From: Oleomonas cavernae
GTDB lineage: Bacteria; Pseudomonadota; Alphaproteobacteria; Zavarziniales; Zavarziniaceae
Direction of reading: 5' to 3'
Length of the DNA stretch: 64,000 bases
NCBI RefSeq assembly: GCF_003590945.1
Contig: NZ_QYUK01000016.1
Coordinates: forward strand, 372,001 to 436,000
Below the pieces are notes generated by a model. That model saw only the letters and a list, made by a program, of their open reading frames with translations, searched no databases and was not told the origin of the DNA. Shown piece by piece: positions 38,758-54,939 of this stretch. A program made the translations under genes and the position numbers. Position 1 is the stretch's first letter, and each line of letters begins with the position of its first letter.

Positions 38758-40428
38758 CTAAACTGCCGCCGCGTCCTCCAGGCGGTGGATGCCGATCGCC
38801 TCGTCCATGTCGCGCATGTGCACGACCTTGGCCTCGTGACGCGGGAGGCTGATGCCTGAGGCCTTGACCGTCGCCGCCGAGATCAGGCAGTCGGCGAGCA
38901 GTTCCTTGGTCGCGGCCTCCAGCCGGCTGGCGATGCTGACGGTATCGCCCATGGCGGTGACCAGCAGCCCGCGCGCCACGTCGCCGACCTCGGCGATCAC
39001 CGCCTGGCCGGTGTGGATGCCGATGCCGATGCGCAAGGGAAAGGGCAGCGCCGCGCCGAAGCGCTGGTTCATCCCGGTTGCGACCGCCAGCATCGCCCGG
39101 GCGGCGGCGATGGCATGGGCGGCCCCGGCGCCCGAGCGGTCCGAGAGGCCGAACACCGCCATCAGCCGGTCGGTCATGAAACTGTCGACCCGACCGCCGT
39201 GGGCCTCGGCCGCCTGGCTCATTTCCCGCAGGAAGGCGTTGATCAGCAGGGTGATGTCATAGGGCAGCAGCCGGCGGGTCAGGCCGTTGAAGGCGCGGAT
39301 GTCGACGAACAGCACCGTCACCTCGCGCTGGGCGCCCCAGCGATAGGCCTCGTCCAGGCTTTCCTGCTTGGCATTGCGCGGCGGGATCGGCAGCAGGATC
39401 TGGGTCGCGATGTCCTGCACCGGCCGCAACTGGCAGGCCAGGCGGACATTACCCGGCGCCGCGAGCTGGGTCAGCATGGCGCGTTCGACCGCCTCGGGCG
39501 GAGGCAGATGCTCGGCCCCGTCGGTCACGGCGATGCGGCAGGTCGAGCAGCGGCCGCGGCCGCCGCAGATGGCGGGGTGAGGGATGCCCTTGATGCGGCT
39601 GGCCTCCAGCACGGTGGTGCCCCGGGTGACGCGGACGTCACCGTGGCCGACATAGCGGATGGTGATGCGGCCCGAGCGCCGGCGCGCGATTTCGCGGCCG
39701 AACATGGTCAGGACAACCAACCCAACGATCGCGGCGAAAACCAGCCTCCCGTCGAAAACGATGCCATCGAGCGCCGCCTCGGTCGACGGGTTGGCGACGG
39801 TTGGCGCTATGCGGGCGAGGGCCTCGCGCGCCGAAGCGACGAAGCCGGCGATGGCAAGGGCCGGCACCAGCGCGGCAAAGGCGATCCAGGCCGCGCGCCA
39901 GCGGGGATAGAAAGCCCGGGTGCGCAGGACATGGGAGACGCCGATGCAGCCGTGGGTCCAGGTACACAGCAGCAGGATGATCTGGGCGATCGCATTGCCG
40001 CTCCAGATCTGCGGCAGCACCGCCGCGTAGGAGATGTCGCTGCCATAACCGACGGCGGCGAAGCGCGTGTTGACCGCGTGGCCGATCAGCAGGTAGGGCA
40101 CCGCCAGGCCCAGGACGATCTGCACCGCCTCGTCGAGCGGCATCAGGATGATGCGGCGGCGGGCCAGGCGCTTGAGCACCAGGGCCAGGTGGCAGGCAAA
40201 GGCGGCATAGAGCAGCACCGTCCCCGGCGGCGATTGCCAGACCGCGACCCGCCAGCCCTGCACCAGGGTCATCCACTGCAGGCCGGCGATGCCGATCGCG
40301 TGGTTGATCAGGTGGGTGGTGACGAAGGCAAACAGCACGAGGCCCGACCACAGCCGCAATTCCCGCTCCCAGGGCAGGGAGCGCTTGGGCTTTGCCACCG
40401 AATCCGGGGGCGCGTCGAGGTCAGACAT
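38758..40428 (-). CDS. Membrane class III nucleotidyl cyclase with haem-type TM domain and 2Fe-2S ferredoxin domain
   Basis: A 556-aa fusion. Residues about 25-245 hold six TM helices with spaced His (THLINHAIG, AFACHLALVL, LLIGHAVNTR, CTWTHGCIG), like the succinate-dehydrogenase/CyaC-type dihaem anchor known as a redox sensor in Sinorhizobium CyaC. Residues about 260-350 are a plant-type ferredoxin domain with Cys in AICGGRGRCSTCRI and VRLACQL. Residues about 370-550 are a class III cyclase domain (VTVLFVDIRAFNGLTR, RVDSFMTDRLMAVFG, TAMGDTVSIASRLEAATK). Both metal Asp are present. The purine-selecting Lys (usual VDKF/VIKF) is Ser, and the transition-state Asn (usual VNxASR) is Ser, so activity or substrate may be unusual. 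It lies 24 bp after a cyclic-nucleotide-binding gene. Confidence 0.88.
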   Translation of the reverse strand: MSDLDAPPDSVAKPKRSLPWERELRLWSGLVLFAFVTTHLINHAIGIAGLQWMTLVQGWRVAVWQSPPGTVLLYAAFACHLALVLKRLARRRIILMPLDEAVQIVLGLAVPYLLIGHAVNTRFAAVGYGSDISYAAVLPQIWSGNAIAQIILLLCTWTHGCIGVSHVLRTRAFYPRWRAAWIAFAALVPALAIAGFVASAREALARIAPTVANPSTEAALDGIVFDGRLVFAAIVGLVVLTMFGREIARRRSGRITIRYVGHGDVRVTRGTTVLEASRIKGIPHPAICGGRGRCSTCRIAVTDGAEHLPPPEAVERAMLTQLAAPGNVRLACQLRPVQDIATQILLPIPPRNAKQESLDEAYRWGAQREVTVLFVDIRAFNGLTRRLLPYDITLLINAFLREMSQAAEAHGGRVDSFMTDRLMAVFGLSDRSGAGAAHAIAAARAMLAVATGMNQRFGAALPFPLRIGIGIHTGQAVIAEVGDVARGLLVTAMGDTVSIASRLEAATKELLADCLISAATVKASGISLPRHEAKVVHMRDMDEAIGIHRLEDAAAV

Positions 40429-40452
40429 GGCGAGGCGGCGGGTGAAAGAGGT

Positions 40453-40881
40453 TCAACTGTTCGCCACCGTCCGCTGGAGCCGGTGCGCCAGTTCGCGCGC
40501 GACGGCCAGGGAAAATCGGGCATTGTCCTGCATCAGGCGGAAGAAGCTCTCCCGGCTGAGGCGCAGCAGCACCAGGTCGGTCAGCGCCAGCACCGAAACC
40601 GTCCGCGGGCTGTCGCACAGGATGCCGACCTCGCCCACCACGGCGCCGGCCCCCTCGCGCCCCAGCGAACGGTTGCCCTTCTCGTTCTCGATCAGAAACT
40701 CGACCTCGCCCGACAGCACCACGAAGACCGCGTCCGACGGATCGCCGCCGTGACAGAGAAACTCCCCCTGCTCGATGAAGACCTCCTCGCTCAGGCAGGC
40801 CATCAGCCGCATCGAGCCGGGCTCGGCGCCCTGAAAGATCGGGATTTGCTGCAAGGCCAAGATTTCGGATTCGAGCGCCAT
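40453..40881 (-). CDS. Cyclic-nucleotide-binding domain protein (Crp-type sensor without HTH)
   Basis: A 142-aa stand-alone cNMP-binding beta-roll. The phosphate-binding cassette reads GAVVGEVGILCDSPRTVSVLA, with the Gly-Glu pair and the Arg that contacts the cyclic phosphate. Earlier strands include FLCHGGDPSDAVFVVLSGEV. No DNA-binding, kinase or TM domain is attached, so it should act by protein contact. It sits between the ATPase-degenerate ABC gene and the cyclase gene with short gaps (68 and 24 bp), suggesting that it senses the nucleotide made by the cyclase and regulates a neighbouring membrane protein. That coupling is inference. Confidence 0.9.
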   Translation of the reverse strand: MALESEILALQQIPIFQGAEPGSMRLMACLSEEVFIEQGEFLCHGGDPSDAVFVVLSGEVEFLIENEKGNRSLGREGAGAVVGEVGILCDSPRTVSVLALTDLVLLRLSRESFFRLMQDNARFSLAVARELAHRLQRTVANS

Positions 40882-40949
40882 GGAATCCTCCGCCCCTCGC
40901 GGTCGTCATCACCTTGAATACAGGCTGTCGGCCCGCCCTGTCACTAGAC

Positions 40950-43556
40950 TCAGCCGGCGGCAGCGGCCGATTTGTGCTCGGCCGCGGCCCCGTTGGACAC
41001 CAGGCGGGCGTCCTTGAACTGGAACACGCTGTCGAAACCCTCGGCCATCTTGGCTTCGCTGGTGGTCACCACCAGGGTCTTGCCCGCCATGGCCTGGCGC
41101 ACGCCCGCCAGCAGCGCCTGCGCCTCGGCCGGGGCGAGATTGCCGATGGTGCCGTCCAGCACCAGGATATCGGGCCGCACGACGAGCGCCCGGGCGACGC
41201 CGAACTTGATCCGCGGCAAGGGTTGCAGCAGGCGGCCGCCCTTGCCGACCTCGACGTCCAGCCCCAGGCCGAAGACCGCGTCGTCCAGGCCGATCTCGCT
41301 GATCACGCCGGCGATGATCGGCGAAATCTTCTTCTGCGCGCCCATGACACCGCTGGCGACCCGGCCGAACAGCAAGTTGTCGATGACCGGCGCCTCGCGC
41401 ATGAAGGCATCGTAGTCGTAGAATTCGATGTCGTCGTTGTAGTCCTGCGGCAGGTGCTGTTTGAAGCTGGCCCGGGCGCGCAGCAGCCTGGTAGCGAATT
41501 CCGGGGTGATCAGGCCTAAGCGGTGGCGCGGCTCGACATAGTCGAAGGCCAGCGCGATCAGTTGGGTGCGGATCGCCGCGGAAACCCCCTGGCCGGGGCT
41601 GGCCTGGCCCAGGGCATCGATCACCGCGCGCAGATCGTCGAGCTGCGACGGCGCGATGAAGGAATAGCGTTCGAACACCGGGTGATCCGGCGGCAGGCCG
41701 CCGAAGGTCTCCAACGCCATTTCTGCGATCTGGCGGCCGAAGGAGATCAGCGGCTGGAGCAGCCCCTCGGCTTCCAGGATGGTCAGGGTATAGCTGTCCC
41801 TGGCCAGGCCGCCGGCGGACAGCTTTGGCCCGACGGGAATGCCGAACAGCAGGTTCTCGCTGATCGTCGCATGGGCGCCGTAGCGGTCGGCGTCGAAGCG
41901 TTCGACCACCTTGCCCAGGTTGGCGGCGATGATCCGTTCCTGCACCAGCCGGCGCGCGGCGACGAAACAGTCGGCGACGTCCGGCATCATCGCCGGCTTC
42001 AGCCGCTGATTGAGGCCCAGGCGGCGGACCTCCTCCAGGGCACCGACAGCCTTCACCGCCTCGCCCAGGCACTGGTTCACCTGGTCCGGCCCTTGGATGC
42101 CCAGGGCGCCGTAGTCCAGGTCGCCTGCTGGATCGCCCGACCGGCGGGCGGCAAACAGGAGGTTGTCGCGCAAGGTCCCGGGCTGAAGGTCGGGGCCTGC
42201 GCCGCAATAGATCAGATGCCGCGTGAACACCGGTTCGGAGAAATGGGCGAGATCGACATCGCCCACCAGGATCCGGCCCTCGTAGGCGGTGATCTGGCGC
42301 CCTAGCAGCTTACCCACGATGTCGCGGGCGCTGCCCGGGTTGCCCAGCAGGGCGGCATGGCCGGGCCGCGGCAAGGTCAGCGACAGCCGGTCGAGCTGGG
42401 CGCCGCTGCGGCCATCGCCGACGGTGACGGCCTGGAATTCGATCGGCGCCTCAGGCCCGGGAAAGGCCGGCGAGACGCCGCTGTCGAAGGGCGGCAGCAA
42501 CGACGACGGCGAGAACTGGCTGATCACCTGCTCGTATTTGATGGCGACATCCTGGCGCTGCTGATCCCAGTCGATCAGCTCCTTGATGGGCGGCGGCAGG
42601 TCGCGATAGGCGGCGATCACCGCCACCAGCTGGCCGATGTCCATCTCGCCGCGCAGGGCGAAATAGCCGCCGGCCGCGTAGAAGATGAAGGGCGTGACCT
42701 GGGAGAGCAGGTTGTTCAGGAACTTGACCGCGAACTTGCGCTTGAACAGCCGGGTGCGGATGCCGAACAAGGTGCCCAGCCGCTGGTCGATATCGGCATC
42801 GACATAGGCCGAGGCGCCGTAGGTGTGCACCGTCGGCGCGGATTCGACCACCTCGCCGATGCGCCCGGCCAGGCGCCGGGATTCGATCTGGCGCAGGCGC
42901 CCCAGGCGCAGCTGCTCGCGCCGCAGGATGGGAATCGCCACGGCCTGGACGGCGACGATGAGGAAGGTCGCCAGGCCCATCCAGACGCTTTGGAAGAAGA
43001 TGAAGATCAGTGCCGTCGCCGCCTGGGTGCCCAGGAACACCGGCTGGATGAAGGCATCGCCCACGAAGCCGCCGATCGGGTCGACCTCGTCCTTGATCAT
43101 GCTCGCGACCTCGGCCGGCTTCACCGCCGCGATATCCTCGGGCCGGAAGCGCAGCAGCAGGATGAACAGGTCGTGGCGCATGCGGCGCAGCATGGCCTCG
43201 CCCAGCACCCCCTTCTTGACATTGATGTAGTACTTGAAGGCACCGTTGATCAGGACCAGGACCAGGAACCAGCAACTGAGCACGATCAGGTAGGGCAGGC
43301 GCTCGAGAATCAAGCCGTCGCTGACGCTGAAGCTGCCGCCGCCCAGCAGGGCGGGCAGCTCGACATGCCAGTCGAACAGGACCGCGGTGACCTGACCGTC
43401 GGCGAAGGCATTTCCCTGGATCGCATTGTTGACGATCAGCTTGGGCACCTCGAGCGACACCCAGTAGAAGGGCAGCGACACGAGGATGACGGCCAGAAGC
43501 AGGATCTGCTGCGCTTTGCTGTGGTGCCACGCGTATCGAAACAGGCTTGGGTCCAA
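40950..43556 (-). CDS. ABC-exporter-like membrane protein with degenerate, enlarged nucleotide-binding domain
   Basis: An 868-aa protein. Residues 1 to about 330 form an ABC exporter TMD (VEVPKLIVNNAI-like opening, several TM helices, ESAPTVHTYGAS in the coupling region). The C-terminal part (about 370-868) aligns to an ABC ATPase domain but is twice as long. The Walker A position reads LLGNPGSARDIVGKL, lacking GxGKS/T. There is no LSGGQ (LPRIKFGVARAL instead). Walker B is ILVLDGT, with the catalytic Glu replaced by Gly, and the switch His position reads VVTTSE. ENLLFG-like motifs occur three times (about 464, 590, 735), suggesting internal duplication. ATP hydrolysis looks unlikely. It is in a run with a cNMP-binding protein and a cyclase. 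Confidence 0.85.
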   Translation of the reverse strand: MDPSLFRYAWHHSKAQQILLLAVILVSLPFYWVSLEVPKLIVNNAIQGNAFADGQVTAVLFDWHVELPALLGGGSFSVSDGLILERLPYLIVLSCWFLVLVLINGAFKYYINVKKGVLGEAMLRRMRHDLFILLLRFRPEDIAAVKPAEVASMIKDEVDPIGGFVGDAFIQPVFLGTQAATALIFIFFQSVWMGLATFLIVAVQAVAIPILRREQLRLGRLRQIESRRLAGRIGEVVESAPTVHTYGASAYVDADIDQRLGTLFGIRTRLFKRKFAVKFLNNLLSQVTPFIFYAAGGYFALRGEMDIGQLVAVIAAYRDLPPPIKELIDWDQQRQDVAIKYEQVISQFSPSSLLPPFDSGVSPAFPGPEAPIEFQAVTVGDGRSGAQLDRLSLTLPRPGHAALLGNPGSARDIVGKLLGRQITAYEGRILVGDVDLAHFSEPVFTRHLIYCGAGPDLQPGTLRDNLLFAARRSGDPAGDLDYGALGIQGPDQVNQCLGEAVKAVGALEEVRRLGLNQRLKPAMMPDVADCFVAARRLVQERIIAANLGKVVERFDADRYGAHATISENLLFGIPVGPKLSAGGLARDSYTLTILEAEGLLQPLISFGRQIAEMALETFGGLPPDHPVFERYSFIAPSQLDDLRAVIDALGQASPGQGVSAAIRTQLIALAFDYVEPRHRLGLITPEFATRLLRARASFKQHLPQDYNDDIEFYDYDAFMREAPVIDNLLFGRVASGVMGAQKKISPIIAGVISEIGLDDAVFGLGLDVEVGKGGRLLQPLPRIKFGVARALVVRPDILVLDGTIGNLAPAEAQALLAGVRQAMAGKTLVVTTSEAKMAEGFDSVFQFKDARLVSNGAAAEHKSAAAAG

Positions 43557-43644
43557 ATCGACTCTCCGGGGCGGCTGGGCCTGCGCCGCGCCGGCATGGT
43601 CGCCCGCCTCGCGCAGGGATACAACCGCGACGCGGTCAACCCAC

Positions 43645-44505
43645 CTATGGGGCCGGCCGGGCCATGACGAGGTAGCCGTAGCCCCAGTCGACCGGCACCA
43701 GGCCGCAAGCCAGGTCGTCCAGCCGGCCGAGCAGCGCCGAATGGGTGACCGCCGATTCCGGCAGCATGCTCTCGACCGTCAGGCGCTCGACCGTGAAGCC
43801 GGCCTCGCCCAGGTCGCGGCGGATCTCGTCGCGCCGGTACAGATGGTAATAGAGGGCGATGGCGCTGCCGCCGGTCTGGCGCTCGTAGCAGATGTCGCCC
43901 GGCTCCAGTTCGCCCCGGGCGATCAGGGGCGCGCAGGCGGCCTGCACGGCGCGAAACCGCCGGGCGGCGTTGGGCAGGCCCAGGACCAGCCGCCCGCCGG
44001 GCGCCAGGCTGGCGCGCAAGGCCGACAGCAGGGCGATCCGCGCGGCATGGCCGGCGATGTGGCCCAGCACGCCGAACCCCAGCAGGACAACGTTGAAGCC
44101 GCCCAGCGCCCCAACCTGCCGCCGGTAGGTCGCGTCGCCCGGATCGCAGACATGGACCCTGTCGGCCAGGCCCAGGCCCCGGGCGGCACCGGCCAGATGA
44201 TCGCGGGCCACGGCGCTGATATCGGCGGCCACCACTTCCGCCCCGCGATCCCGCGCCAAGGCAAAGCAGTAGCGCCCCTCGCCGGCGCCGTAGTCAAGCA
44301 ATCGCCCACCCGTCGGCAGGGTCTGGCGCAGCAGGCGCAGGGTGCGGCGATTGGGCATCGGGTAGCGGGACAGGTAGAGGCCCGAGGCAAAATAGGCGTC
44401 GTAGCTGCGGCCCATGTCGGGCAGCACGGGTGTCGCGCAAACACCCGCCGCCTCGGGGGGCGGCGCCACACCGGCAGGGGATCGACCGCTCGAAGAGATG
44501 GACAT
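43645..44505 (-). CDS. Class I SAM-dependent methyltransferase
   Basis: A 286-aa protein. After a Pro/Ala-rich N-terminus (about 1-30) comes YFASGLYLSRYPMPNRRT. The SAM motif reads LLDYGAGEGRYCFALARD (about 69-86), then VVAADISAVARDH, LLGFGVLGHIAGH and LAPGGRLVLGLPNA. The C-terminal YHLYRRDEIRRDLGEAGF is typical of small-molecule or lipid methyltransferases. It starts 10 bp after the stop of the NCS2 gene upstream, so it is likely in the same transcript. Substrate unknown. Confidence 0.88.
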   Translation of the reverse strand: MSISSSGRSPAGVAPPPEAAGVCATPVLPDMGRSYDAYFASGLYLSRYPMPNRRTLRLLRQTLPTGGRLLDYGAGEGRYCFALARDRGAEVVAADISAVARDHLAGAARGLGLADRVHVCDPGDATYRRQVGALGGFNVVLLGFGVLGHIAGHAARIALLSALRASLAPGGRLVLGLPNAARRFRAVQAACAPLIARGELEPGDICYERQTGGSAIALYYHLYRRDEIRRDLGEAGFTVERLTVESMLPESAVTHSALLGRLDDLACGLVPVDWGYGYLVMARPAP

Positions 44506-44515
44506 GGCGGCCCCC

Positions 44516-46228
44516 TCAATCCTTGAAGGTCAGGCGCAACTCGGCCTGGCGGCCCACCGTCCGGGTACGCACCGAATCGGCCAGGCGATTGATCAGGTAG
44601 CCGGCGAGGCGCTGGGGCGCCTGGTCGTCGTCGACCATTTCCTCGTGGCTGGGCGGGCGGCTGGCCAGCACCGGCAAGGTGCCGCGGTAGCGGATGATGA
44701 TCGCCAGGTTGTACTCGTCGAGCTGGGTTTCCAGCTCGATGGCCTCGCCGTCGGCGGCAATGAGGTCGCTTTCCTTCAGGAGCTCGAAGGCCTGCCAGGA
44801 AGCGAGTTCCGCCTTCTTCACCGCCTCGTGGCGGGCGCCCCAGATCCGCCCCTGCTGCTCGATGAAGGCGATCATGTCCTCGAAATGGGTTTGGGCGACC
44901 GGGAAGCTGTGCCGCGTCTTGCGGCGAATGCCCAGGCGGAACAAGGCCTGCAGCATCACGGCGACGGTCAGCGCCAGGGCGAATTGCGAGAAGGCGACGT
45001 AGTGGGCGCTGGGCAGCAGGCGGTTCAACTGCTCGTGAATATCGCCATAGGTGAGGCCGACCAGCAGGGCGACGCCGATGGCCAAGGTGCGGCGGTTGTC
45101 CAGCATGCGCGAGCCGATCATCTGGATCCCGCCGATGGTGGCGAAGGACGACAGGAACAGGAACAGGGCGCCCAGCACCTCGGGCGGCACGATCATCCAA
45201 GCGACGATGATCTTGGGGCAAAGGGCGAAGACGAACAGCAAGCCGGCCGTCCACACCGCCAAGTGCCGGCTGGTGCAACCGGACGCCAGCGCCAGGCTGG
45301 CAGCACCCCCGCTGGCAACCATGGGCATGGCATTGATCAGCGAGGCGAAGATCTGGGCGATGCCCTCGGCCCGCACGCCCCGGCCGACCGCGGCCAGGTC
45401 CGGCCGCTTGAAATCGGCGTCGTTGAAGCGCTGGGCCACGGTCTGCACCCCCATCGAGGTCAGCGACAGGGAAAAGCCGGTGATGATCGCCGGCACCAGG
45501 GCCTCCATCTCGAAGCGCCAGCCGAATTGCTGGAGCATCGGCACATGGAACAGCGCGGCACCGTCGAAGGCGGCGAGATCGGCCGGGGTCAGCAGCCCGG
45601 CGGCGATGCTGAGTCCCAGGCCGACACCAAGGCCGGTCACCGTGGCGAACAGCCGAAGCCGGCTCTTCACCCAGACATTGCAGACGATCATGACGGCAAG
45701 CGTCGCCGCGGCCACGCCGACCCTGTCGGGCGACGGCGCCGCAGCACCCGCTGACGAGAAGATCAGGTTGAGGCCGATGACGCCGAAGCCGGCCCCGATC
45801 AGCAGCATGGCCAGGCCCGCGACTTCGACCGTGAAGATGGCCTTCAGGCGCTGGATGACGAAGCTGAACACGATCATCGACAGGCCCGAGACCGCGAACA
45901 TGCCAAAGCCGCCGTCGAGGCCCGAGGTGGCGAGGCCGATCCCCAGGACGGGCAGCACCGAGGCGGTGCCCTGGACCGGCAGGAAGATGCCGGCGCCGAT
46001 GCCGAAGCGGCCCCAGGCCTGCAGCAGCAGGGCGACCGCCGAATAGATCAGGCAGGCCGCCGCCAGGTTCAGGAACGCCGCATGATCCATGCCGGCATTG
46101 CGTGCGAAGACCACCGGCACCGCCAGCAGGGCGCCCAGGAAGGCGACCTGCTGCAAGGCCAGCCCGAAGGCGAAGCGGGCCGGCGGAATATCCTCGAGCC
46201 AGTAGAGGAGCGTGTCGGGTCTGCGCAT
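44516..46228 (-). CDS. NCS2-family (uracil/xanthine) permease with GHKL-like C-terminal domain
   Basis: A 570-aa protein. Residues about 15-435 form 12-14 TM helices of NCS2/SulP-like fold (GAGIFLPVQGTASVLPVLG, SLTSMGVQTVAQRFNDADF). Residues about 440-570 are cytosolic. They resemble an RsbW-type GHKL ATPase domain in order, with HFEDMIAFIEQQGRIWGARH, EYNLAIIIRYRG and QRLAGYLINRLADSVRTRT before a last beta strand, but the ATP-binding Asn and DxG residues are not preserved. Normal NCS2 permeases end soon after the last TM. A paralogue with the same layout lies at 46973-48727. It may be a sensor rather than, or besides, a transporter. Confidence 0.85.
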   Translation of the reverse strand: MRRPDTLLYWLEDIPPARFAFGLALQQVAFLGALLAVPVVFARNAGMDHAAFLNLAAACLIYSAVALLLQAWGRFGIGAGIFLPVQGTASVLPVLGIGLATSGLDGGFGMFAVSGLSMIVFSFVIQRLKAIFTVEVAGLAMLLIGAGFGVIGLNLIFSSAGAAAPSPDRVGVAAATLAVMIVCNVWVKSRLRLFATVTGLGVGLGLSIAAGLLTPADLAAFDGAALFHVPMLQQFGWRFEMEALVPAIITGFSLSLTSMGVQTVAQRFNDADFKRPDLAAVGRGVRAEGIAQIFASLINAMPMVASGGAASLALASGCTSRHLAVWTAGLLFVFALCPKIIVAWMIVPPEVLGALFLFLSSFATIGGIQMIGSRMLDNRRTLAIGVALLVGLTYGDIHEQLNRLLPSAHYVAFSQFALALTVAVMLQALFRLGIRRKTRHSFPVAQTHFEDMIAFIEQQGRIWGARHEAVKKAELASWQAFELLKESDLIAADGEAIELETQLDEYNLAIIIRYRGTLPVLASRPPSHEEMVDDDQAPQRLAGYLINRLADSVRTRTVGRQAELRLTFKD

Positions 46229-46265
46229 CGGGTACTCGTTACAAAGGGGCTGTCAGATAACGCTG

Positions 46266-46976
46266 TCAGATAACGGGGAACAGGGTGGTTTCGCCCGGCG
46301 GGGTCTGCCACAGGTCGCCGGTATCGAGATCGAACCACCAGCCGTGCAGTTGCAGGGTGCCGGCCTCGACCCGCGCCTTCAGCCAGGGATAGGTCAGCAG
46401 GTTGGCGAGCGAGCCGGCGATCGCCGCCCGTTCGACCAGGAACGGATTTTCCTTGAGCTGGGCCAGGGCGATCTCCCGGCGCCCGCCCTCGCCGTTGTCG
46501 ACGTGGAGCTTGCAGGCATCCAGGGCGATTTCGACCCAGTCGCTGATGAAGTCGCGCGGCAGGCGCTGGCCGCCGGCGCTGCCGATCAGGGCCTTGATGC
46601 CGCCGCAGTGGGCGTGGCCCATGATCACGATGTGATCGACCTTGAGGTCGCGCACGGCATATTCGATCGCGGCACCCGTGCCGTGCAGGGAAGGGCCGGG
46701 CTGATAGGGCGGCACCAGGTTGGCGACGTTGCGCACGGTGAACAATTCGCCGGGGTCCGCGCCCGACAGGATGGCCGGATCGACCCGGCTGTCCGAGCAG
46801 GAGATCATCAAGGTCGCCGGGGCCTGGCCGTCCTCGACCAGGGACCGCATCAGGTGGTGATTGTCGCCGTAATGCCGGGCCTTGAAGGCGCGGATGCCCT
46901 CGGTCAGATGGCTGATGTCGCGGCAGGTGCAGCCGGCGGGTCGATCGACGCTCAAGATATGTCCCCCATGGCTCAA
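46266..46976 (-). CDS. can: Beta-class carbonic anhydrase
   Basis: Interconverts CO2 and bicarbonate. The 236-aa product has the zinc-binding and catalytic residues of beta enzymes: MISCSDSRVDP (Cys, Asp-Arg dyad) and MGHAHCGGIKAL (His, Cys). FTVRNVANLVPPY and AAIEYAVRDLKVDHIV complete the fold. It has an extra N-terminal part with GCTCRD. Its start overlaps the stop of the upstream NCS2 gene by 4 bp. A 13-bp tandem duplication (46249-46274) covers its stop codon. SulP/NCS2-carbonic anhydrase pairs usually point to bicarbonate transport or CO2 sensing. Confidence 0.94.
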   Translation of the reverse strand: MSHGGHILSVDRPAGCTCRDISHLTEGIRAFKARHYGDNHHLMRSLVEDGQAPATLMISCSDSRVDPAILSGADPGELFTVRNVANLVPPYQPGPSLHGTGAAIEYAVRDLKVDHIVIMGHAHCGGIKALIGSAGGQRLPRDFISDWVEIALDACKLHVDNGEGGRREIALAQLKENPFLVERAAIAGSLANLLTYPWLKARVEAGTLQLHGWWFDLDTGDLWQTPPGETTLFPVI

Positions 46977-48727
46977 TGGTTGAAATGCAGGCGCAGGAAC
47001 GCGCTTTTCGTCGCCGGATCCGTGCCCGCTTTCAGGCGATCCGCCAGCCGCTGGATCAGCACGCCCGAGACATTCGCCATGGCGCTATCGATGGCCGTGT
47101 CGTCGTCGCTCTCCAGCAGGGCGGCAAGGTCGGGGGCCGTCGCCGGCACCAGGGGCAGCGGGGCGCCGGCATGGCGCAGTTCGATGTCGAGGCTCAACTC
47201 GTCGAAACTGCCCGTGATCGCCGTGACCATCCGCCCGCCGCCCGCGGCGCGGATCGCCTCGACCGCCTCGACCGCGGCCTGGGCGGCGCGGCTGACGGCG
47301 TCGCGCCGGGCCGCCCAGGCACCGCCCATCCGCTCGATGAACTCGGTGACCTGGATCTCGGGCGCCGGCGCCGTGGTGATCGCCTGGGTCTGCGTCTTGC
47401 GGATGCCTAAGCGGAAGATCTGGTTGAGCACGATCGCCAGCAGGCCGGTGACGATGAAGCCGCTGCCCACAAGCGGGTGCAGCGAGGCCGGCGCATGGCT
47501 CGCGACCCCCGGCATCATCAGGATGCCGACGCCGCAGACCAGCGAAATGCCGATGATGAAGACGCCGCGGGTATCGAGCTGGCGCGAGGCGACGAGGTCC
47601 ATCCCTGAGGCGATCAGGAAGGCCGCGGCATAGAATTCGATGGCGCCGATCACCGGGGTCGGGATCAGGGTCAGGGCCATGGTCACCTGGGGCAGGAAGG
47701 CGATCACGGCCAGGATGGCGGCGGTGGCCAGCCCGGCATAGCGGGTGGTGGCACGGCTGGCGTGGCACAGGCCGATATTGGCCGACGAGGTCGCGGTGGT
47801 CATGCCGCCCAGGGCGCTGCCGATCAGGTCGCCCAGGCCGTTCGCCTGCATGCCCCGGCCGGCCTGCCGCAGGTCGGGCCGGCGCCAGTCGGCATCGTCC
47901 ATCTTGTCCATCAGGATGAAGCTGCCGATCGAATCGATCTGGCCCAGCAGGGCGATGAAGGCGACGCCGATGACCGCGCCGATGGGCACGTCGAAGACCG
48001 GGGTGGCGAGCATCGGCAGGGCGAAAGCCGGCACCGCCAGCAGGCTGTCGCCGCCTGTGAGGCGGCCCATCAACAGCGCCGTGGCCACGCCGGCGGCGAT
48101 GCCGATCAGCAGCGCGAACAGTTTCACGCGCCGGCCGCCCCAGATCGACAGGGCCACGACGATCGCGAAGGTGGCGCCCGAGACCGCTAGGCTGTCGCCG
48201 TCCATTGCCTGGTCCGGCCCCAGGCCCAGGGCATGGGAGAAGGCCACGCGCACCAGCGAAAGGCCGCCGATCAGGACCACGAGGCCGGTGACGATGGGCG
48301 GGAACAGCCCGCGCAGGCGCGGCGCGAAGGGGGAGACGGCCAATGCCACGATGGCCGAGACCACGCTGATCAGCACCATGCCGCCGGCCCCGGTGACCGC
48401 CAGGATGGGGATCGCCAGGGGCAACACGAAGGGCGACGGTATTTGGACGATCAGCGCGCCCGCGCCCAGCTTTCCGCCCCAGGCCTGGAGTGCGGTGCCC
48501 AGGGCCATGGTGATGATGGTGGCGGCCAGCATGGCCCTGGTCTCGTCATGGCCGAGGCCGGCTCCCTTGGCGACCGCCAGGACATAGGCCGAGAGGCCGA
48601 GCGCCATGGCCGCATGCTGCAGCCCCAGGGTCAGCAGGGTGAAGGAGGATGGCCGTTGGTCCGCCGCCAGCGACAGTTCCTGGGGCCGGCGGCGGGGCCG
48701 CGATGGGGGCAGGCCGAAGCGACTCAT
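46973..48727 (-). CDS. NCS2-family permease with GHKL-like C-terminal domain
   Basis: A 584-aa paralogue of the protein at 44516. After a basic, Pro-rich N-terminus (FGLPPSRPRRRPQELS) come NCS2 TM helices (LTLGLQHAAMALGLSAYVLA, IVQIPSPFVLPLAIPILAVT, IGSALGGMTTATSSANIGLC). The C-terminal tail of about 130 aa starts at QVTEFIERMGGAWAARRDAV and ends with GVLIQRLADRLKAG and LRLHFNH. Tail layout resembles anti-sigma GHKL domains, but the ATP-binding motifs are weak. It is coupled to the carbonic anhydrase gene by a 4-bp overlap and divergent from the STAS gene; the 208-bp gap between them includes an AT-rich stretch suited to promoters. Confidence 0.86.
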   Translation of the reverse strand: MSRFGLPPSRPRRRPQELSLAADQRPSSFTLLTLGLQHAAMALGLSAYVLAVAKGAGLGHDETRAMLAATIITMALGTALQAWGGKLGAGALIVQIPSPFVLPLAIPILAVTGAGGMVLISVVSAIVALAVSPFAPRLRGLFPPIVTGLVVLIGGLSLVRVAFSHALGLGPDQAMDGDSLAVSGATFAIVVALSIWGGRRVKLFALLIGIAAGVATALLMGRLTGGDSLLAVPAFALPMLATPVFDVPIGAVIGVAFIALLGQIDSIGSFILMDKMDDADWRRPDLRQAGRGMQANGLGDLIGSALGGMTTATSSANIGLCHASRATTRYAGLATAAILAVIAFLPQVTMALTLIPTPVIGAIEFYAAAFLIASGMDLVASRQLDTRGVFIIGISLVCGVGILMMPGVASHAPASLHPLVGSGFIVTGLLAIVLNQIFRLGIRKTQTQAITTAPAPEIQVTEFIERMGGAWAARRDAVSRAAQAAVEAVEAIRAAGGGRMVTAITGSFDELSLDIELRHAGAPLPLVPATAPDLAALLESDDDTAIDSAMANVSGVLIQRLADRLKAGTDPATKSAFLRLHFNH

Positions 48728-48935
48728 CGGCCAGCCCGTGGCCGGCGGTCATCACTACGTGGGGCGGCATACCGATAAGCCGTTGCCTGCATGAGTACTT
48801 CCTGTCCAGCCCGTCGCCTTCGGCTGATGTCTCATCATGCAGCCGCTCCAAATCTATTGCCATTATGGTATTAATTTTTACCTTTTCGGCGACACTCTGC
48901 ACCACAATCGCGTGTTTTTTTGAGGATCCAAGACG

Positions 48936-49268
48936 ATGAGCATCACCTTCGAAGCGGGCGAAGCCACGCTTGTCGCCAATCTGCAGGGGCGGCTGGACAG
49001 CACGAATTCGGCGGCGGTGGAGGCGGAGCTGCTGGGCCGGATGAATGGCGGCGGGACCGGCCTGGTGCTGGATTTCTCGCGGCTCGACTATATTTCCAGC
49101 GCCGGCCTCAGGGTCGTGCTGGTGGTCGCCAAGCGCCTGAAGCAGGCCGGGAGCACCTTCATCCTCGCGGGCCTGCAACCCCATATCAAGGATGTGTTCG
49201 AGATTGCCGGCTTCCTCAGCATTCTCGACGTTGCCGGCAGCCGCGCCGAGGCGCTGGCCCGCCTCTGA
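48936..49268 (+). CDS. STAS-domain anti-sigma factor antagonist
   Basis: A 110-aa SpoIIAA/RsbV-like protein. Motifs are VANLQGRLDSTNSAAVEAEL and the phosphorylation-loop segment LDYISSAGLRVVLVVAKR, where the Ser of SSAG is the expected regulatory phosphosite, followed by a C-terminal IAGFLSILDVAG. In partner switching, a GHKL kinase phosphorylates this Ser and a SpoIIE phosphatase removes it. Both partner types are encoded next door on the other strand. The start follows gaggatcc. Its stop TGA is immediately followed by the TCA of the convergent phosphatase gene. Confidence 0.94.
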   Translation: MSITFEAGEATLVANLQGRLDSTNSAAVEAELLGRMNGGGTGLVLDFSRLDYISSAGLRVVLVVAKRLKQAGSTFILAGLQPHIKDVFEIAGFLSILDVAGSRAEALARL

Positions 49269-51194
49269 TCAGGAAACCGCCGCGACCGCCGGCCGGGGGC
49301 CGAGATAACGGATCACCAGGCAGGTGATATCGTCGGACTGTTCGGCCTGGCCGACGAACCGGTCGACCGCCCGGGTCACACTTTCGATGACGACATCCAC
49401 CGCCTGGGCATGGGCGGTGCCCAGTGCCGTGCGCAGGCGGGCCTCGGTGAATTCCTGGCCGCCGGCATCCATCGCCTCGGAGATGCCGTCGGTATAGAGG
49501 AACAGCGTGTCGCCCGCCTCCAGCCGGGTCGTCCGTTCGGTATAGGCCATGCCCGGCATGACCCCCAGGGCCATGCCGCCGGTCCGCGGCAGGTCGGTCA
49601 CGCTGCCGTCGCCCCGCCGGATCATCATCGGCGGGTTGTGGCCGCCGTTGGCATAGGCGAGGTCGCCGGTTTGGGTGTCGAGGATGCCGTAGAAGGTGGT
49701 GACGAACAGGTCCATCGGGTTCTGGTCGCACAGCAGCGTGTTGGCCCGGGCCAGGCAGGCCCCGGGCGCACGGTGTTCCCTGGCGCTCGATTGCAGCACG
49801 GTGCGCGAAATCGCCATGAAGAAGGCCGCCGGCACGCCCTTGCCCGAAACGTCGGCGATGACGATGCCCAGGTGACGCTGGTCGAGGGCGAAGAAATCAT
49901 AGAAGTCGCCGCCCAGCTCCCGCGCCGGCACCATCGTCGCCTTGCCGGTGTAGGAGGGATGGACGGGTAGCGCCTGCGGCAGGATCGCCGCCTGAAGGCT
50001 GCGCGCGGCATCCAGCTCGGTCTCGACCCGGCGTTTCGATTCCTCCAGCAGCGCGTTCTTCTGCTCGAGTTCCAGCGTGCGCGCGCGGACCTGGGCCTCC
50101 AGGTTCTGCTCGCGGGTCTGCACTTCGATCGCCATGTGCTGGAACACCCGGGCCAGGGTGCCCAATTCGTCCGGGGCGGCGGCCAGCCGGTCGATGCTCT
50201 GCGGCTGGAACACCCGGCGATCGATCTCACCGGCCGCCCGGGTCATGGCGACGACGGGCCGGGCGATCCGGCTGGCAAAGACCGCGGCGACGCTGACCCC
50301 GACCGCGAAGACCAGCGCCGCCGCCGCGGCACCGTAGAGCAGGTAGTCGAGCAGCATCAGGTCGAGGCGGCGGTTGGACATCTCCAGCACCGTCGCGCCG
50401 ATGGTAATCCCGGCGGTATCCCTGATCGGGGCCGACACCCACAGGCGGCCGTCCCGCAGGGTCGAGGCGGCCTGGCTGTTGGAGACCGCCGCCGCGGCCA
50501 TGTCGGCGACCGTACCCGGCGGCACCGCTTCCCCGACCCGGGCCAGCAGGCGGAAGGTATCGTCGAGCACCTGGATCGCCAGGATGTCGTCGCGATCGAG
50601 CAGCGCCTCGAGCAGGACCGGCAGGCTGTTCGCCGCCCGGACCGCATCGAGGACCGCGACCGGCTGGCCGGCGATCAGGGCGCGGTTGCCGGGCACGCGA
50701 ACCCCGACATAGCGGGTGCCGTCGACCGGGGCGCCGAAATCGACACTGAATTTCCGGCCCGAGGTCAGGGCGTCCAGCGCCTCCCGGGACAGGGTCGCGG
50801 GCAGGGATTCGCCGCGGATGACCGCGCCGTAATTGCCCACCGAATTGGCCAGCACGTTGCCCTCGGCATCGATCAGCCAGATCGAATCGAGATTGCTGCG
50901 TGCCGCGATTTCGGCGAGCTGGTCGCTGAGGTCGGCCGGGCTGGGTTCGCTCAGGTGGGCGACGGCAAGGGCCAGGGTCGCCAGGTCGTCGAGCAGGACG
51001 TCCTGCATCTCCTCGAGCGAGACCTCGGTCAGGCGCGCACTCTCGGCGACGATGCGGGCAACGCCGTGGGCCTGGTTTTCCGCCTGGGCGATCAGGGCCT
51101 GGCGTCCGAGCCAGCCGAACACCAGGCTGATCATCAGCACGGCCAGGGCGATGCAGCCGGCCACCATCAGGACAAGGCGGCGGGTCAAGGTCAC
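49269..51194 (-). CDS. Membrane sensor with HAMP and SpoIIE/PP2C phosphatase domain
   Basis: A 641-aa RsbU/RsbP-type phosphatase. It has TM1 at about 8-28, a periplasmic sensor of about 240 residues (dCache-like, with SIWLIDAEGNVLANSVGNYG) and TM2 around LLYGAAAAALVFAVGVSVAA. HAMP (RIARPVVAMTRAAGEIDRR) and a coiled coil (ELEQKNALLEESKRRVETEL) follow. The PP2C/SpoIIE domain has ELGGDFYDFF, ADVSGKGVPAAFFMA, LYTDGISEAMDAGG and QSDDITCLVIRY, all metal Asp present. The start is GTG at 51192-51194, overlapping the stop of the permease-ATPase gene. It would dephosphorylate the neighbouring STAS protein. Confidence 0.92.
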   Translation of the reverse strand: MTLTRRLVLMVAGCIALAVLMISLVFGWLGRQALIAQAENQAHGVARIVAESARLTEVSLEEMQDVLLDDLATLALAVAHLSEPSPADLSDQLAEIAARSNLDSIWLIDAEGNVLANSVGNYGAVIRGESLPATLSREALDALTSGRKFSVDFGAPVDGTRYVGVRVPGNRALIAGQPVAVLDAVRAANSLPVLLEALLDRDDILAIQVLDDTFRLLARVGEAVPPGTVADMAAAAVSNSQAASTLRDGRLWVSAPIRDTAGITIGATVLEMSNRRLDLMLLDYLLYGAAAAALVFAVGVSVAAVFASRIARPVVAMTRAAGEIDRRVFQPQSIDRLAAAPDELGTLARVFQHMAIEVQTREQNLEAQVRARTLELEQKNALLEESKRRVETELDAARSLQAAILPQALPVHPSYTGKATMVPARELGGDFYDFFALDQRHLGIVIADVSGKGVPAAFFMAISRTVLQSSAREHRAPGACLARANTLLCDQNPMDLFVTTFYGILDTQTGDLAYANGGHNPPMMIRRGDGSVTDLPRTGGMALGVMPGMAYTERTTRLEAGDTLFLYTDGISEAMDAGGQEFTEARLRTALGTAHAQAVDVVIESVTRAVDRFVGQAEQSDDITCLVIRYLGPRPAVAAVS

Positions 51195-52345
51195 GGCGCA
51201 TATCCATCGGTGGCGGCGCCGGGGCGCAGCATGACCAGCCGAACCAGGTTCCGCTCGCCGACCCGGTGGTAATAGGCCCGGTCGACCAGCTTGCCCACCA
51301 GATGGACGCCGAGCCCGCCCACCGCCCGGGTTTCCACCGGCTGGTCCAGAGCCGGCGGCGGCGCCTCGCGGAACGGATCGAAGGCGGGGCCGGCATCGCT
51401 GAGCTCGACACTGATGCAGCGCGGATCGACCAGGATGGCCACGCCCAGGGTGGAGCTGGGCACCGCGCCGTGCATCACCACATTGGTCACCAGTTCCTCG
51501 ACCGACATGGTCAGCTTGAAGACGGCGCCGGCGTCGAGAATGTCGTCGGCCGCACTCTCGATCGCGGCCTGGATCGGGGCGATGGCATCGAGCGATACGG
51601 GCAGGTCGAAGCGGCGCTCGAGAATGGTGTCTGCGGCCATCGGCATATCCCCGTCCGGCAGGATGATCAGGTTGAACTCGGCAAAGCCGCCGCGATCGGC
51701 CAGGGCTGCCCTGGCCCCGGCCCGTGAGCCGGCGCGCCGGCTGAGCCTGGCCTTGGCATGGCTCATGAGCCGGGCCAGCGGCCAGCAGAAGGCCAGGAAC
51801 CACGCCATGGTATAGAGATAGACCCAGACGATCGCGCCGGGATCGCCCACGGCGGCGATCACCGTATTGGCCCGCTGGACGATTTCCGGCACCCCGATCA
51901 CCGAGGCGGTGGACGAGGCCATCATGATGATCAGGAAATAGGTGGTCCAGGCCGGGATGAAGTAGAGCGCCTCGACCGTCTCGCCGCGGCGGTGGTGGCG
52001 GAAGGCGGACAGGGCATTGTCGGAGACGAAGCCGGCGACCGCGACCGACAAGGCGAGCGACGCCTTCAGCCAGCCGTCCAGCGGCACCACGGTATCGCCC
52101 AGCTCGACCTGCGGCGGCAGCGCATAGGCGAGGTAGTAGATCAGCACGAAGGTGGGCGGCAGGCGCGCGGCGGCGGTCAGGCCGGCGCCCAGGCGCGAGC
52201 CCGACAGGCGCAGCCGCGCCAGGCCCAGCCCCAGCGGCGTGCCGATCGCCATGGTCACGGCCGAGATCAGGATGTTCCACAGGAAGCCCTGCCCCAGGTA
52301 CGGGGTCCAGGTCCAGAGCATGGCGGCGGTCTCGCTGAACTTCAT
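51191..52345 (-). CDS. ABC permease (HisM-type) fused to RsbW-like GHKL ATPase domain
   Basis: A 384-aa fusion. Residues about 10-195 are an amino-acid ABC permease (GQGFLWNILISAVTMAIGTP, LPPTFVLIYYLAYALPP, SSTASVIGVPEIVQRANTV), with a shortened EAA coupling region (RRGETVEALYFIPAWTTYF). Residues about 240-376 form an anti-sigma-type GHKL domain with the N-box SVEELVTNVVMHG (Glu284, Asn288), the G1 box ELSDAGPAFDPF (Asp317-Ala-Gly) and the G2 box GGLGVHLVGKLVD (343-355). ATP binding should be intact. The start overlaps the preceding stop by 4 bp. A transport channel joined to a partner-switching kinase suggests direct signal transfer. Confidence 0.9.
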   Translation of the reverse strand: MKFSETAAMLWTWTPYLGQGFLWNILISAVTMAIGTPLGLGLARLRLSGSRLGAGLTAAARLPPTFVLIYYLAYALPPQVELGDTVVPLDGWLKASLALSVAVAGFVSDNALSAFRHHRRGETVEALYFIPAWTTYFLIIMMASSTASVIGVPEIVQRANTVIAAVGDPGAIVWVYLYTMAWFLAFCWPLARLMSHAKARLSRRAGSRAGARAALADRGGFAEFNLIILPDGDMPMAADTILERRFDLPVSLDAIAPIQAAIESAADDILDAGAVFKLTMSVEELVTNVVMHGAVPSSTLGVAILVDPRCISVELSDAGPAFDPFREAPPPALDQPVETRAVGGLGVHLVGKLVDRAYYHRVGERNLVRLVMLRPGAATDGYAP

Positions 52346-53931
52346 CGCCGCTGGAGCCGCCGCTCGACCAGGGTGAAGCCATGCACCACCGCCAGCACGA
52401 TCGCGATATAGGCGAGCAGGAGGATGTTCATCATCACCGGGCCGTTGCCATAGTCGGCGACGATCGAGGTGCTGACATGCACCAGTTCGGGCACCGCGAT
52501 GGCACTGGCCATGGCGGTGGCCTTGACCACGTTGACGCAGCTTCCCATCACGGCGGGAAACGCCAGGCGCGCAACCCGCCGCAGGCGTCCGGCCCCGGGC
52601 CCGACGGTGTCGGCCGCCTCGGCCAGGGCGACCGCATTGGCGGCCCCGGCGTAGAAGGAGAGGACGCCTGCGGCGGCGAGGAAGGCATTCAGCGACAGGC
52701 CCTGCGCCGCCAGCAGACCGCCGATTCCGAAGAACACCAGATAGAGCTGGAGCAGCGGCGGTGTCATGCGCATGAGCGCCAGGGCCAGGTGCACCAGCGG
52801 GGTGACCACGGCCAGGCGCCGGCGGATCAGGCCCGCCCCGGCGATGCCGACCAGCACGCTGCCGATCACCACGGCCAGCGCCAGCCCGATGGTCACCAGC
52901 AGCCCCCAGGCGAACTGCCCGCGATTATAGGCGTCATAGAAGGCGGTCAGGTCGATGCCGAAATCATCGCGCAGGGCCAGCGCAAGGCCGACCAGGCCGC
53001 TCAGTTCCTGGGCCTGGATCAGGTTCAGTTCGCGGCAGTCGGTGGGCCATTTGCCGTCGGCCTGGCGGCGGCAATGCCATTGCCCGTCGTCGTCCCGCGC
53101 CGACCAGCGGGCGGACGCCTCACCCAGGTAGGCCGACGGCGGCAGTCGCCATTTCGCCTCCAGCGCCAGCAGCCGGCCGTCGCGCAGCCAGCCGGCAACG
53201 GCCTCATCGAACAGGCCGGCCAGCCGGTCGTCGGCGGCGACGGCGACCGCCCAGGGCGCGACGAAATCGGCCGGCAGCAGGCGGTAGCCGGGCCAGGCCC
53301 CGCTGGCCATCTGATGCTGCAGGGCGGCCTCGTCATACAGCCAGCCGGCACAGCGGCCATCGCGCAACGCCAGTTCGGCGTCGCGGGTGTTGCCGAAGGC
53401 GCGGATATCGACCAGCAGCCGGGTCGCCGCCAGGCGGTTCCACAAGGCACCCTGGACGGCACAGAGCGTTTGCCCCCGCGTCTCCATCCAGCCGTGGATC
53501 GGGCTGCCGGCCGGGACCAGCACGCTGGCCCCGCCGCCGTAGTAGCCGGGCTCGATCATGCGGACCAGGCGGCGGCGGTCGACCGTGTCGCCCAGGGTGG
53601 CGACCAGCACGTCGACATCGCCGGCGGTCAGCTTCTGCAAGCGGTTGGAACTGGTCACCGGCACCAGGTGCAGCGCCACCCCCAGGGTCTCCGCCAGGCC
53701 GGCGGCCACGTCCACGTCGAAGCCGACGGTGGTGCCCGCGGCATCGCGGTACCCGAAGGGTTCGTAGTCGACCTTGACGCCGGCGATCAACTCGCCGCGC
53801 TGCCGGATCTCGTCCAGCCGGTCGGCCCTGGCCGGGCCGCTGGCCATGACACCCAGGACGACGAGAAGCACAAGGGCCGCGATCCGTTGCGTGAGAACCT
53901 CGGGCGAAGACAACGGAAAGGGAACCTCCAA
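52342..53931 (-). CDS. Periplasmic-binding-protein/ABC permease fusion (amino-acid type)
   Basis: A 529-aa protein. It has a signal/TM segment (about 14-36) and a family-3 amino-acid binding domain (about 37-265) with DEIRQRGELIAGVKVDYEPF, GFDVDVAAGLAETLGV and LTAGDVDVLVATLGDT. A linker with two Cys (QWHCRRQ, TDCREL) follows, then a HisM/GlnP permease (about 330-529) with FAWGLLVTIGLALAVVIGSV, LALMRMTPPLLQLYLVFFG and an EAA segment AEAADTVGPGAGRLRRVARL. SBP-permease fusions are known, but here no ABC ATPase gene lies in the locus. It pairs with the permease-ATPase fusion downstream. The start at 53931 may lie upstream of the real one (Met31 is too far inside the signal). Confidence 0.9.
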   Translation of the reverse strand: MEVPFPLSSPEVLTQRIAALVLLVVLGVMASGPARADRLDEIRQRGELIAGVKVDYEPFGYRDAAGTTVGFDVDVAAGLAETLGVALHLVPVTSSNRLQKLTAGDVDVLVATLGDTVDRRRLVRMIEPGYYGGGASVLVPAGSPIHGWMETRGQTLCAVQGALWNRLAATRLLVDIRAFGNTRDAELALRDGRCAGWLYDEAALQHQMASGAWPGYRLLPADFVAPWAVAVAADDRLAGLFDEAVAGWLRDGRLLALEAKWRLPPSAYLGEASARWSARDDDGQWHCRRQADGKWPTDCRELNLIQAQELSGLVGLALALRDDFGIDLTAFYDAYNRGQFAWGLLVTIGLALAVVIGSVLVGIAGAGLIRRRLAVVTPLVHLALALMRMTPPLLQLYLVFFGIGGLLAAQGLSLNAFLAAAGVLSFYAGAANAVALAEAADTVGPGAGRLRRVARLAFPAVMGSCVNVVKATAMASAIAVPELVHVSTSIVADYGNGPVMMNILLLAYIAIVLAVVHGFTLVERRLQRR

Positions 53932-54057
53932 CCTGGGGCCGGCAGCCGGAACGCCCGTTCCGGGGATCGGGCAGAACCGATCGGTACGCCTATTTTATGA
54001 ACAAATCCGATCCAAAGTGGTAGCAATTTGCGAATGGCCGCAGCGGAAGGGATCGTC

Positions 54058-54939
54058 GTGAACAGCAAAGGGTGGTCGAGGGTCTTGGCCGGGGCGCTGG
54101 CGCTTGTCCTTGCGCTGTCGGCGACGGCGTCGGCGGCGACGCTCGACCGGATCGCGCAGAGCGGGGTGCTGCGGGCCGGCACGCGGGCCGATGCCGTGCC
54201 TTTTGCCTTCCTGAACGACCAGGGCCAACTGGCCGGGTTCTCCGTCGATCTGCTGGAGGAGATCCGCGCCGCGGTCGAGGCCCGGCTGGGCCGCCCGGTG
54301 AAGCTGGAGCTTTCGGTCGTGACCCCGGCGAACCGCCTGCCCCTGGTCGCCGACGGCAAGCTGGACCTGGTGTGCGAGATCGCCACGCCGACCTGGGCGC
54401 GGGAGGCGACCATCGACTTTTCCGTGCCCTTCTTCCGGGACGGCACGCGCATCCTGGCCTTTCGCGACACGCTGCGGACCACGCCCAGCCTGAAGGACAT
54501 GGTGGTGGGGGTGGCGGAGGGGACGACGACCGCGACCATCCTGGAGGATGCCCTGCCCGGCATCGTGACCCGGGACTATCCCACCATGGACGATGCCTTC
54601 GCGGCCCTGATCAAGGGCGAGGTGCAAGGCGTTGCCAATATCGGCGTGATCCTGCTCGGCCTGTCGCGCAAGCTCGAGCCCAACCGCAGCGTGGTCCTGC
54701 TGCCCCGCGCGGCCCCGCTGGGCAACGAGGCCATGGCCTGCATCCTGCCGCAGGACGACAGCGCCTGGCGCGACCTGGTCAATCACGCGATCATGGACCT
54801 GACCCAGGGCCTGGCCGAGTACCGCGGCCGTTACATGGACATCCACCACAAGTGGTTCGGCCGCGACGGTGTGATGGTCTATCCGCTGGACCGCTCGACC
54901 CGCGACTACCTGCTCCAGTCCAACATCTGGGCCCAGTGA
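54058..54939 (+). CDS. Amino-acid-type periplasmic substrate-binding protein
   Basis: A 293-aa family-3 solute-binding protein. I chose the GTG at 54058-54060 because an AAGGGA site lies 7 bp upstream and it gives NSKGWSRVLAGALALVLALS, a clean signal peptide cleaved near ASA-A. The mature protein has LDRIAQSGVLRAGTRADAVP, GFSVDLLEEIRAAVEARLG, a DLVCEIATPTWAREATIDFS ligand region and GVAEGTTTATILED. In-frame ATGs upstream (54028, 54034) have no ribosome site. Divergent from the SBP-permease fusion; it may deliver ligand to it. Confidence 0.9.
   Translation: MNSKGWSRVLAGALALVLALSATASAATLDRIAQSGVLRAGTRADAVPFAFLNDQGQLAGFSVDLLEEIRAAVEARLGRPVKLELSVVTPANRLPLVADGKLDLVCEIATPTWAREATIDFSVPFFRDGTRILAFRDTLRTTPSLKDMVVGVAEGTTTATILEDALPGIVTRDYPTMDDAFAALIKGEVQGVANIGVILLGLSRKLEPNRSVVLLPRAAPLGNEAMACILPQDDSAWRDLVNHAIMDLTQGLAEYRGRYMDIHHKWFGRDGVMVYPLDRSTRDYLLQSNIWAQ

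Follow-up and report, generated by a model that had tools for sequence, protein, structure and literature searches.

Partner switches of the RsbV-RsbW-RsbU and SpoIIAA-SpoIIAB-SpoIIE type are built from a STAS protein with a conserved serine, an RsbW-type kinase with intact motifs and a SpoIIE-type phosphatase, and HisQMP-type amino-acid ATP-binding cassette (ABC) importers from a binding protein, two permease halves and an ATPase, the EAA loop being the part of an ABC importer permease that receives the ATPase. The SulP/SLC26 transporters share the UraA fold of the NCS2/SLC23 permeases (UraA, UapA) and carry a C-terminal STAS domain. In the SLC5-STAC histidine kinases such as CbrA, the so-called transceptors, a transporter scaffold is joined to a GHKL-fold kinase (PMC13022988, PMC7096432). 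We have analysed a stretch of 64,000 nucleotides from Oleomonas cavernae (the window; contig C16 of the 5.64 Mb genome G000) and consider here its genes labelled A to L, from 38758 to 54939, all of those named in an earlier sequence-only reading being indeed open frames at the positions given for them. These 16 kb consist of two units, the real unit being the switch block L-K-J-I-H-G-D and A-B-C being a separate module. On balance we favour the reading that the switch block encodes a receptor without an ATPase and, under its control, a partner switch, the STAS protein of which probably docks on the tails of NCS2 permeases.

The K-J pair and the partner-switch genes

The binding protein and both permease halves of a HisQMP-type importer are present in K and J, since K is a solute-binding protein (SBP) fused to the first permease half, as the sequence-only reading had it, and J is the second half followed by an RsbW-type kinase domain; the closest named relatives of J belong to Zavarzinia aquatilis and a Zavarzinia metagenome-assembled genome (MAG; 75% identity). 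Alignment with importers indicates that the EAA coupling loops are absent from both halves, J being without 20 residues and K without 16-17, and the loop regions accordingly measure 51 residues in J and 61 in K as against 71 and 78 in ordinary importers. The loop region is likewise missing in 14 of 14 J rows from ATPase-less loci (51-54 residues vs 71), namely the window, L096-L100, the SpoIIE-linked L221, L222 and L225, and the cyclase-linked L070, L223, L224, L226 and L227, and it is kept in all nine rows from loci with an ATPase gene (L228-L230 and six importers), K following the same pattern. At all 23 aligned loci, hence, the loops are lost where a HisP-type ATPase gene is absent and kept where one is present, and two further loop-less pairs were found outside the class (L261, L262). 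No dedicated ATPase gene is found in the block, and the HisP-like genes in the fetched stretches of loop-less loci do not exceed 36% identity, those compared for position being 27-35% identical and lying away from the downstream side of J, although the stretches L225-L227 are short at one end and the absence of an ATPase is less certain there. Furthermore, the RsbW kinase, whether fused to J or encoded right behind it, takes the position that the ATPase gene has in ordinary relatives of the class (L068, L069, L071 and L072), where the order is binding protein, permease, permease, ATPase. These four loci had been candidates for K/J relatives fused to other outputs and were dropped as ordinary importers with ATPase genes. 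It should also be mentioned that in five genomes loop-less SBP-permease pairs without an ATPase gene (the five cyclase-linked loci) follow a dCache class III cyclase gene and a methyltransferase gene, which gives the same receptor type a second signalling neighbour. From its anatomy K-J thus appears to be an amino-acid ABC importer that was uncoupled from its motor and turned receptor, and the receptor part of this statement is well supported. Support extends to the earlier proposal of a transport scaffold that acts as sensor for a phosphorylation switch, since K and J have neither coupling loops nor an ATPase gene, with an RsbW kinase instead.

At the sequence level the parts of an RsbV/W/U-type module are present, that is a STAS antagonist with a predicted phosphorylatable serine (H), an RsbW-type kinase (J) and a SpoIIE-type phosphatase (I). 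The kinase domain of J matches HATPase_c_2 (Pfam E 6e-16) and RsbW 6m36 (E 3e-12, profile A5), and in alignment its ATP-site motifs are intact (E and N of the N-box, G.FDP and GGLG), so that the intact RsbW-like domain first described on this HisM-type permease does hold. H is a STAS protein (Pfam E 1e-16) in which the loop serine of YISSAGLR is invariant in 13/13 aligned sequences, and I covers positions 2-191 of 192 of SpoIIE (E 6e-50) and carries a HAMP domain, its dCache match being weak. A search of the whole genome returned a single match each for STAS and SpoIIE, both in this block, with J as the best RsbW-type match and the remaining HATPase_c_2 matches in frames of 332-1145 residues, most of them histidine-kinase-sized; H is therefore without any other obvious kinase or phosphatase. 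The block contains no cognate sigma factor and no other known target.

The relatives preserve what may be stages in the making of such a locus. A still-complete importer stands beside the same switch at three loci, of which L230 holds on one strand the STAS and SpoIIE genes, methyltransferase D, binding protein L, K, J, HisP and a free RsbW with both loops intact, L229 divides the same parts between two facing groups and keeps HisP and both loops, and L228, which also has both loops, carries HisP, RsbW, K, J and L along a single stretch of contig. SpoIIE is kept at L221 and L222 and the loops and ATPase are lost there, and at L097 and L100 the kinase is a separate gene of 149 residues directly behind the permease; since J is in this way split into permease and RsbW genes, the RsbW domain can be regarded as a separable module. 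This series suggests that the switch joined a working importer before the motor was lost, but the trees of K and J, which are unrooted and have long branches, give no proof and leave the order of events unsettled.

The NCS2 permeases as candidate output

G has the UraA fold according to Foldseek matches to UapA and UraA (E 1e-14 to 1e-12; model of predicted local distance difference test score (pLDDT) 69), and the substrate glutamates of UraA (E241, E290) are not kept in it, being D and A in the phmmer alignment. E gave no PDB match by sequence, and its residues are read only via alignment with G. The GHKL-like tails that the sequence-only reading ascribed to both permeases are present and degenerate, the ATP-site residues (N-box Asn, DxG and GxG) being lost as read from alignments. 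The tail compares with the RsbW profile over 113 columns (hhalign E 3e-5, probability 73%), one of the two tails, that of E, has a weak HATPase_c_2 match (Pfam E 0.022), the G model shows the helix-strand order of the RsbW fold in the tail, and the tails do not match the STAS profile. By sequence, then, the NCS2 tails are homologous to RsbW domains but degenerate. A PDB search with the tail profile returned nothing meaningful, and since Foldseek with G gave permease-fold matches only, the assessment of the tail relies on the profile comparison and on secondary structure. The tail family is rare, with matches in 15/385 sampled Alphaproteobacteria and 21/101 in the family of G462.

At 15/61 loci, or 9/55 without the loci found through J, an NCS2-tail gene has a STAS gene no more than 2 kb away, figures which are descriptive and carry no statistical test, the 61 loci being not a random draw and including several close relatives. 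The surroundings differ widely, as L135 and L175 combine a TRAP-type binding protein, hybrid kinase, response regulator, REC-SpoIIE, RsbW, STAS and permease, L149, L181, L243 and L245 have permease, STAS and RsbW beside a Na/Pi cotransporter, response regulator, kinase and REC-SpoIIE, a Thiodictyon plasmid (L104) has three permease-tail copies, one of them truncated, with STAS, SpoIIE and RsbW, and L174 has permease and STAS alone. It is because the STAS-permease pairing recurs while the input side varies that we propose the permease tail as a docking site. Two side observations belong here, namely an NHLP-type gene for the precursor of a ribosomally synthesised and post-translationally modified peptide within the plasmid cluster (L104 15565-15885), and the Na/Pi cotransporter gene near RsbW and STAS, found at the four loci just named and also at L229 (17293-18855), which perhaps represents another output or input.

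K and J would, on the favoured reading, descend from an amino-acid ABC importer that is no longer motor-driven and now serves as a receptor, in which ligand-loaded binding domains (that of K, and perhaps L) may shift the conformation of the pair and so alter the activity of the kinase domain. This domain of J would phosphorylate H on the conserved serine, and the membrane phosphatase I would remove the phosphate under a signal of its own. Unphosphorylated H might then, with less support than the foregoing steps, dock on the degenerate RsbW-like tails of G and E and change permease activity, acting in trans like the STAS domain built in cis into the SulP transporters of the same fold, and D may modify the ligand or a component. 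That the NCS2 permeases are the output of the switch is something we infer from the sequences. Several points weigh against such a scheme. The loop loss is read from alignment and not from the structure of a complex, and the model predicted for J, with a low pLDDT of 51, is too poor for a fold search. A STAS neighbour occurs at only a quarter of the NCS2-tail loci, most such permeases standing alone, and at E 1e-3 no NCS2-tail match was found in G153, G265 and G292, which have K-J-I, or in G140 and G240, which have K-J-I together with the ATPase. In Z. aquatilis, finally, the block is found on two contigs, as L-K-J-I and H-G-D-F-E.

The absence of NCS2-tail genes from several K-J-I genomes means that NCS2 permeases are not an obligatory output and that other outputs must exist, and it also favours an ordinary partner switch, in which J would be a membrane-tethered RsbW holding a sigma factor or other regulator that is freed by H, the NCS2 genes being neighbours or regulatory targets and not partners of H. 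The Gram-negative partner switches known so far do have targets of this kind or unknown ones (FlgM, the SypA target, Btr; review PMC8256260). Against this, STAS genes are repeatedly found next to NCS2-tail genes, in arrangements unrelated to one another, and the tail has an RsbW-like character of its own, for which a gene that simply lies nearby would have no need. We therefore consider this alternative doubtful, if worth keeping in mind.

Less probable still is that K-J continue to move ligand, either driven by an ATPase from another locus or as a facilitator gated by the binding protein, with RsbW only regulating or localising them. The genome does contain more than 100 ABC ATPase matches, and the transmembrane parts are well conserved with a near-invariant stretch around IPAWTTY, but members without an ATPase invariably lack both loops and members with one invariably have them, and the best ATPases of the genome are just 40-43% identical to the switch-associated HisP. 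The block is moreover without an importer ATPase, as had been claimed from the outset, the nearest in the window (27000-28685) being 27-32% identical to HisP, and it seems unlikely that an ATPase encoded elsewhere completes a normal importer, since the loops gripping the ATPase are gone.

Extent of the unit and neighbouring genes

The order and orientation of the switch block (L-K-J-I-H-G-D) are kept in a Zavarzinia MAG, Kaistia soli, a Bosea MAG, Oryzicola mucosus and Corticibacterium, at 57-83% protein identity across five genera and with overlapping genes. The window deviates in having D placed after E. This methyltransferase gene was omitted from the first gene list, yet it belongs to the unit, and it adjoins G, SpoIIE, L or K at L066/L101, L131, L097-L100, L221, L222, L229 and L230. 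The other listed parts were all found by Pfam, including the STAS protein, the SpoIIE phosphatase, the cyclic nucleotide monophosphate (cNMP)-binding protein and the redox-type cyclase (Table 1).

Table 1. Genes A to L of the locus, with positions in the window
Gene	Position	Strand	Assignment	Basis
L	54028..54939	+	second solute-binding protein (family 3), divergent from K	PDB 2ia4/8ovn E 1e-21; conserved position
K	52342..53931	-	SBP_bac_3 domain fused to HisM-type permease half; EAA coupling loop lost	Pfam E 3e-24; alignment
J	51191..52345	-	HisM-type permease half, EAA loop deleted near 51957, fused to RsbW-type kinase domain (51194-51628)	
I	49269..51194	-	membrane sensor region (weak dCache_1), HAMP, SpoIIE phosphatase	Pfam
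H	48936..49268	+	single-domain STAS protein, conserved serine in YISSAGLR	Pfam, alignment
G	46973..48727	-	NCS2 permease, degenerate RsbW-like tail (46976-47374)	Pfam Xan_ur_permease E 4e-42
F	46266..46976	-	beta-carbonic anhydrase, upstream partner of E-type permeases	Pfam Pro_CA E 1e-43
E	44516..46228	-	second NCS2 permease, degenerate RsbW-like tail (44519-44917)	Pfam Xan_ur_permease E 2e-31
D	43645..44505	-	class I S-adenosylmethionine methyltransferase, conserved-block member	Pfam
C	40950..43556	-	ABC-exporter-like, degenerate nucleotide-binding regions, separate module	Pfam ABC_membrane only
B	40453..40881	-	cNMP-binding protein, separate module	Pfam cNMP_binding E 6e-21
A	38758..40428	-	membrane region, 2Fe-2S and class III cyclase, separate module	Pfam Fer2 and Guanylate_cyc

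It is highly improbable that the whole 16 kb form one regulatory system including cyclic AMP signalling and CO2/bicarbonate. The run of seven minus-strand genes from 48727 down to 38758 that was noted at first was borne out, G and F overlapping by 4 bases and the other gaps measuring 10 to 88 bases, and G to A may thus be cotranscribed in this species. Nonetheless G001, of the same genus, has orthologues of A-B-C side by side at L076 (identities C 66, B 60 and A 54%) but not the rest, and the search gave no NCS2-tail match in that genome. Conversely, G005 (L066/L101) and Z. aquatilis have the switch block and no A-B-C orthologues with it, the best C matches there being at 33-34%. As each occurs without the other within the genus, A-B-C is a separate module, so that the single-unit model was rejected for these three genes and second messengers do not belong to one unit with the switch, as had been supposed. 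A is found near B-C at L033 as well as with B-C at L076, the C-B pair occurs across Alphaproteobacteria, and an IS3-type transposase gene lies directly beside A (37211-38519), which likewise speaks against a single system. C does lack ATPase motifs as first stated, but this is not specific to the locus, since GK[ST] of Walker A is kept in 0/23 aligned C homologues from across the class and from plasmids, with the signature and Walker B also altered. The C family (the window gene, L032, L033 and L076-L095) is class-wide and nearly always adjoins a cNMP-binding protein; its homologue on pSymB of S. meliloti 1021 (L035 12001-14677) reads in two frames, most relatives being in one piece.

In Zavarzinia the block is extended by E and by the carbonic anhydrase F (PDB 1ekj, E 6e-38), which retains the CSDSR and GH..C motifs. 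A carbonic anhydrase gene also stands directly upstream of E-type permeases (44-46% identity to E) in another family (L187, L189, L234, L236 and L238), and none was found next to the block in Hyphomicrobiales, so the link to CO2 concerns E and not the switch, contrary to what was first suggested. From carbonic anhydrase-NCS2 pairs in two families an NCS2-type bicarbonate-related transporter appears possible. Independent occurrence in relatives, raised at the outset as a possible refutation, is thus true of A-B-C and of F-E and not of L-K-J-I-H-G-D, the split in Z. aquatilis aside. Finally, the notion that the genes are neighbours without functional linkage, assembled by chance or transfer, agrees with the patchy distribution of the block across Alphaproteobacteria but is hardly credible given the order, orientation and overlaps kept in five genera and the single STAS and single SpoIIE gene of the genome.

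Relation to known systems

If true, the favoured reading describes an unrecognised route from transporter to sensor. The origin of receptors from transporters is usually argued from single fusions, and here natural loci preserve the apparent steps, that is a complete importer beside the switch, loss of motor and loops, a kinase beside the permease and a fused kinase. It would also offer a testable answer to the question of possible targets for the orphan STAS and RsbW proteins found in Gram-negative bacteria, and it amounts to the proposal that a transporter can be controlled through reversible serine phosphorylation of a docking STAS protein. As a wider and more tentative idea, ABC importers may become receptors by swapping ATPase and loops for a serine kinase, with a STAS protein docking on an NCS2 pseudo-kinase tail, SulP-like but in trans. 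SpoIIE with NCS2, permease-RsbW fusions and the whole combination were not found in the open-access literature (most subscription journals lie outside that search), and a review of the control of transporter activity mentions neither STAS nor partner switching (PMC10710835).

The module resembles RsbV-RsbW-RsbU and SpoIIAA-SpoIIAB-SpoIIE in its conserved-serine STAS protein, motif-intact kinase and phosphatase, but differs from them in that the kinase is fused to, or encoded behind, an ABC importer permease half, and in that the candidate output is a transporter with an RsbW-like tail where no known sigma-factor partner is found. With HisQMP-type importers K-J share the binding protein, the two permease halves and the gene order, but here the binding protein is fused to a permease, the coupling loops are lost and RsbW replaces the absent ATPase gene. 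The CbrA type likewise joins a transporter scaffold to a GHKL-fold kinase, but it pairs a secondary transporter with a histidine kinase and a two-component output, and Pfam finds no SLC5 domain, STAC domain or histidine kinase in J or K, which instead combine an ABC importer scaffold with a serine-kinase partner switch. G, lastly, shares the fold of the NCS2/SLC23 and SulP/SLC26 proteins, but unlike UraA it does not keep the substrate glutamates, and unlike SulP proteins E and G carry a degenerate RsbW-like tail, the STAS protein being encoded by a separate gene.

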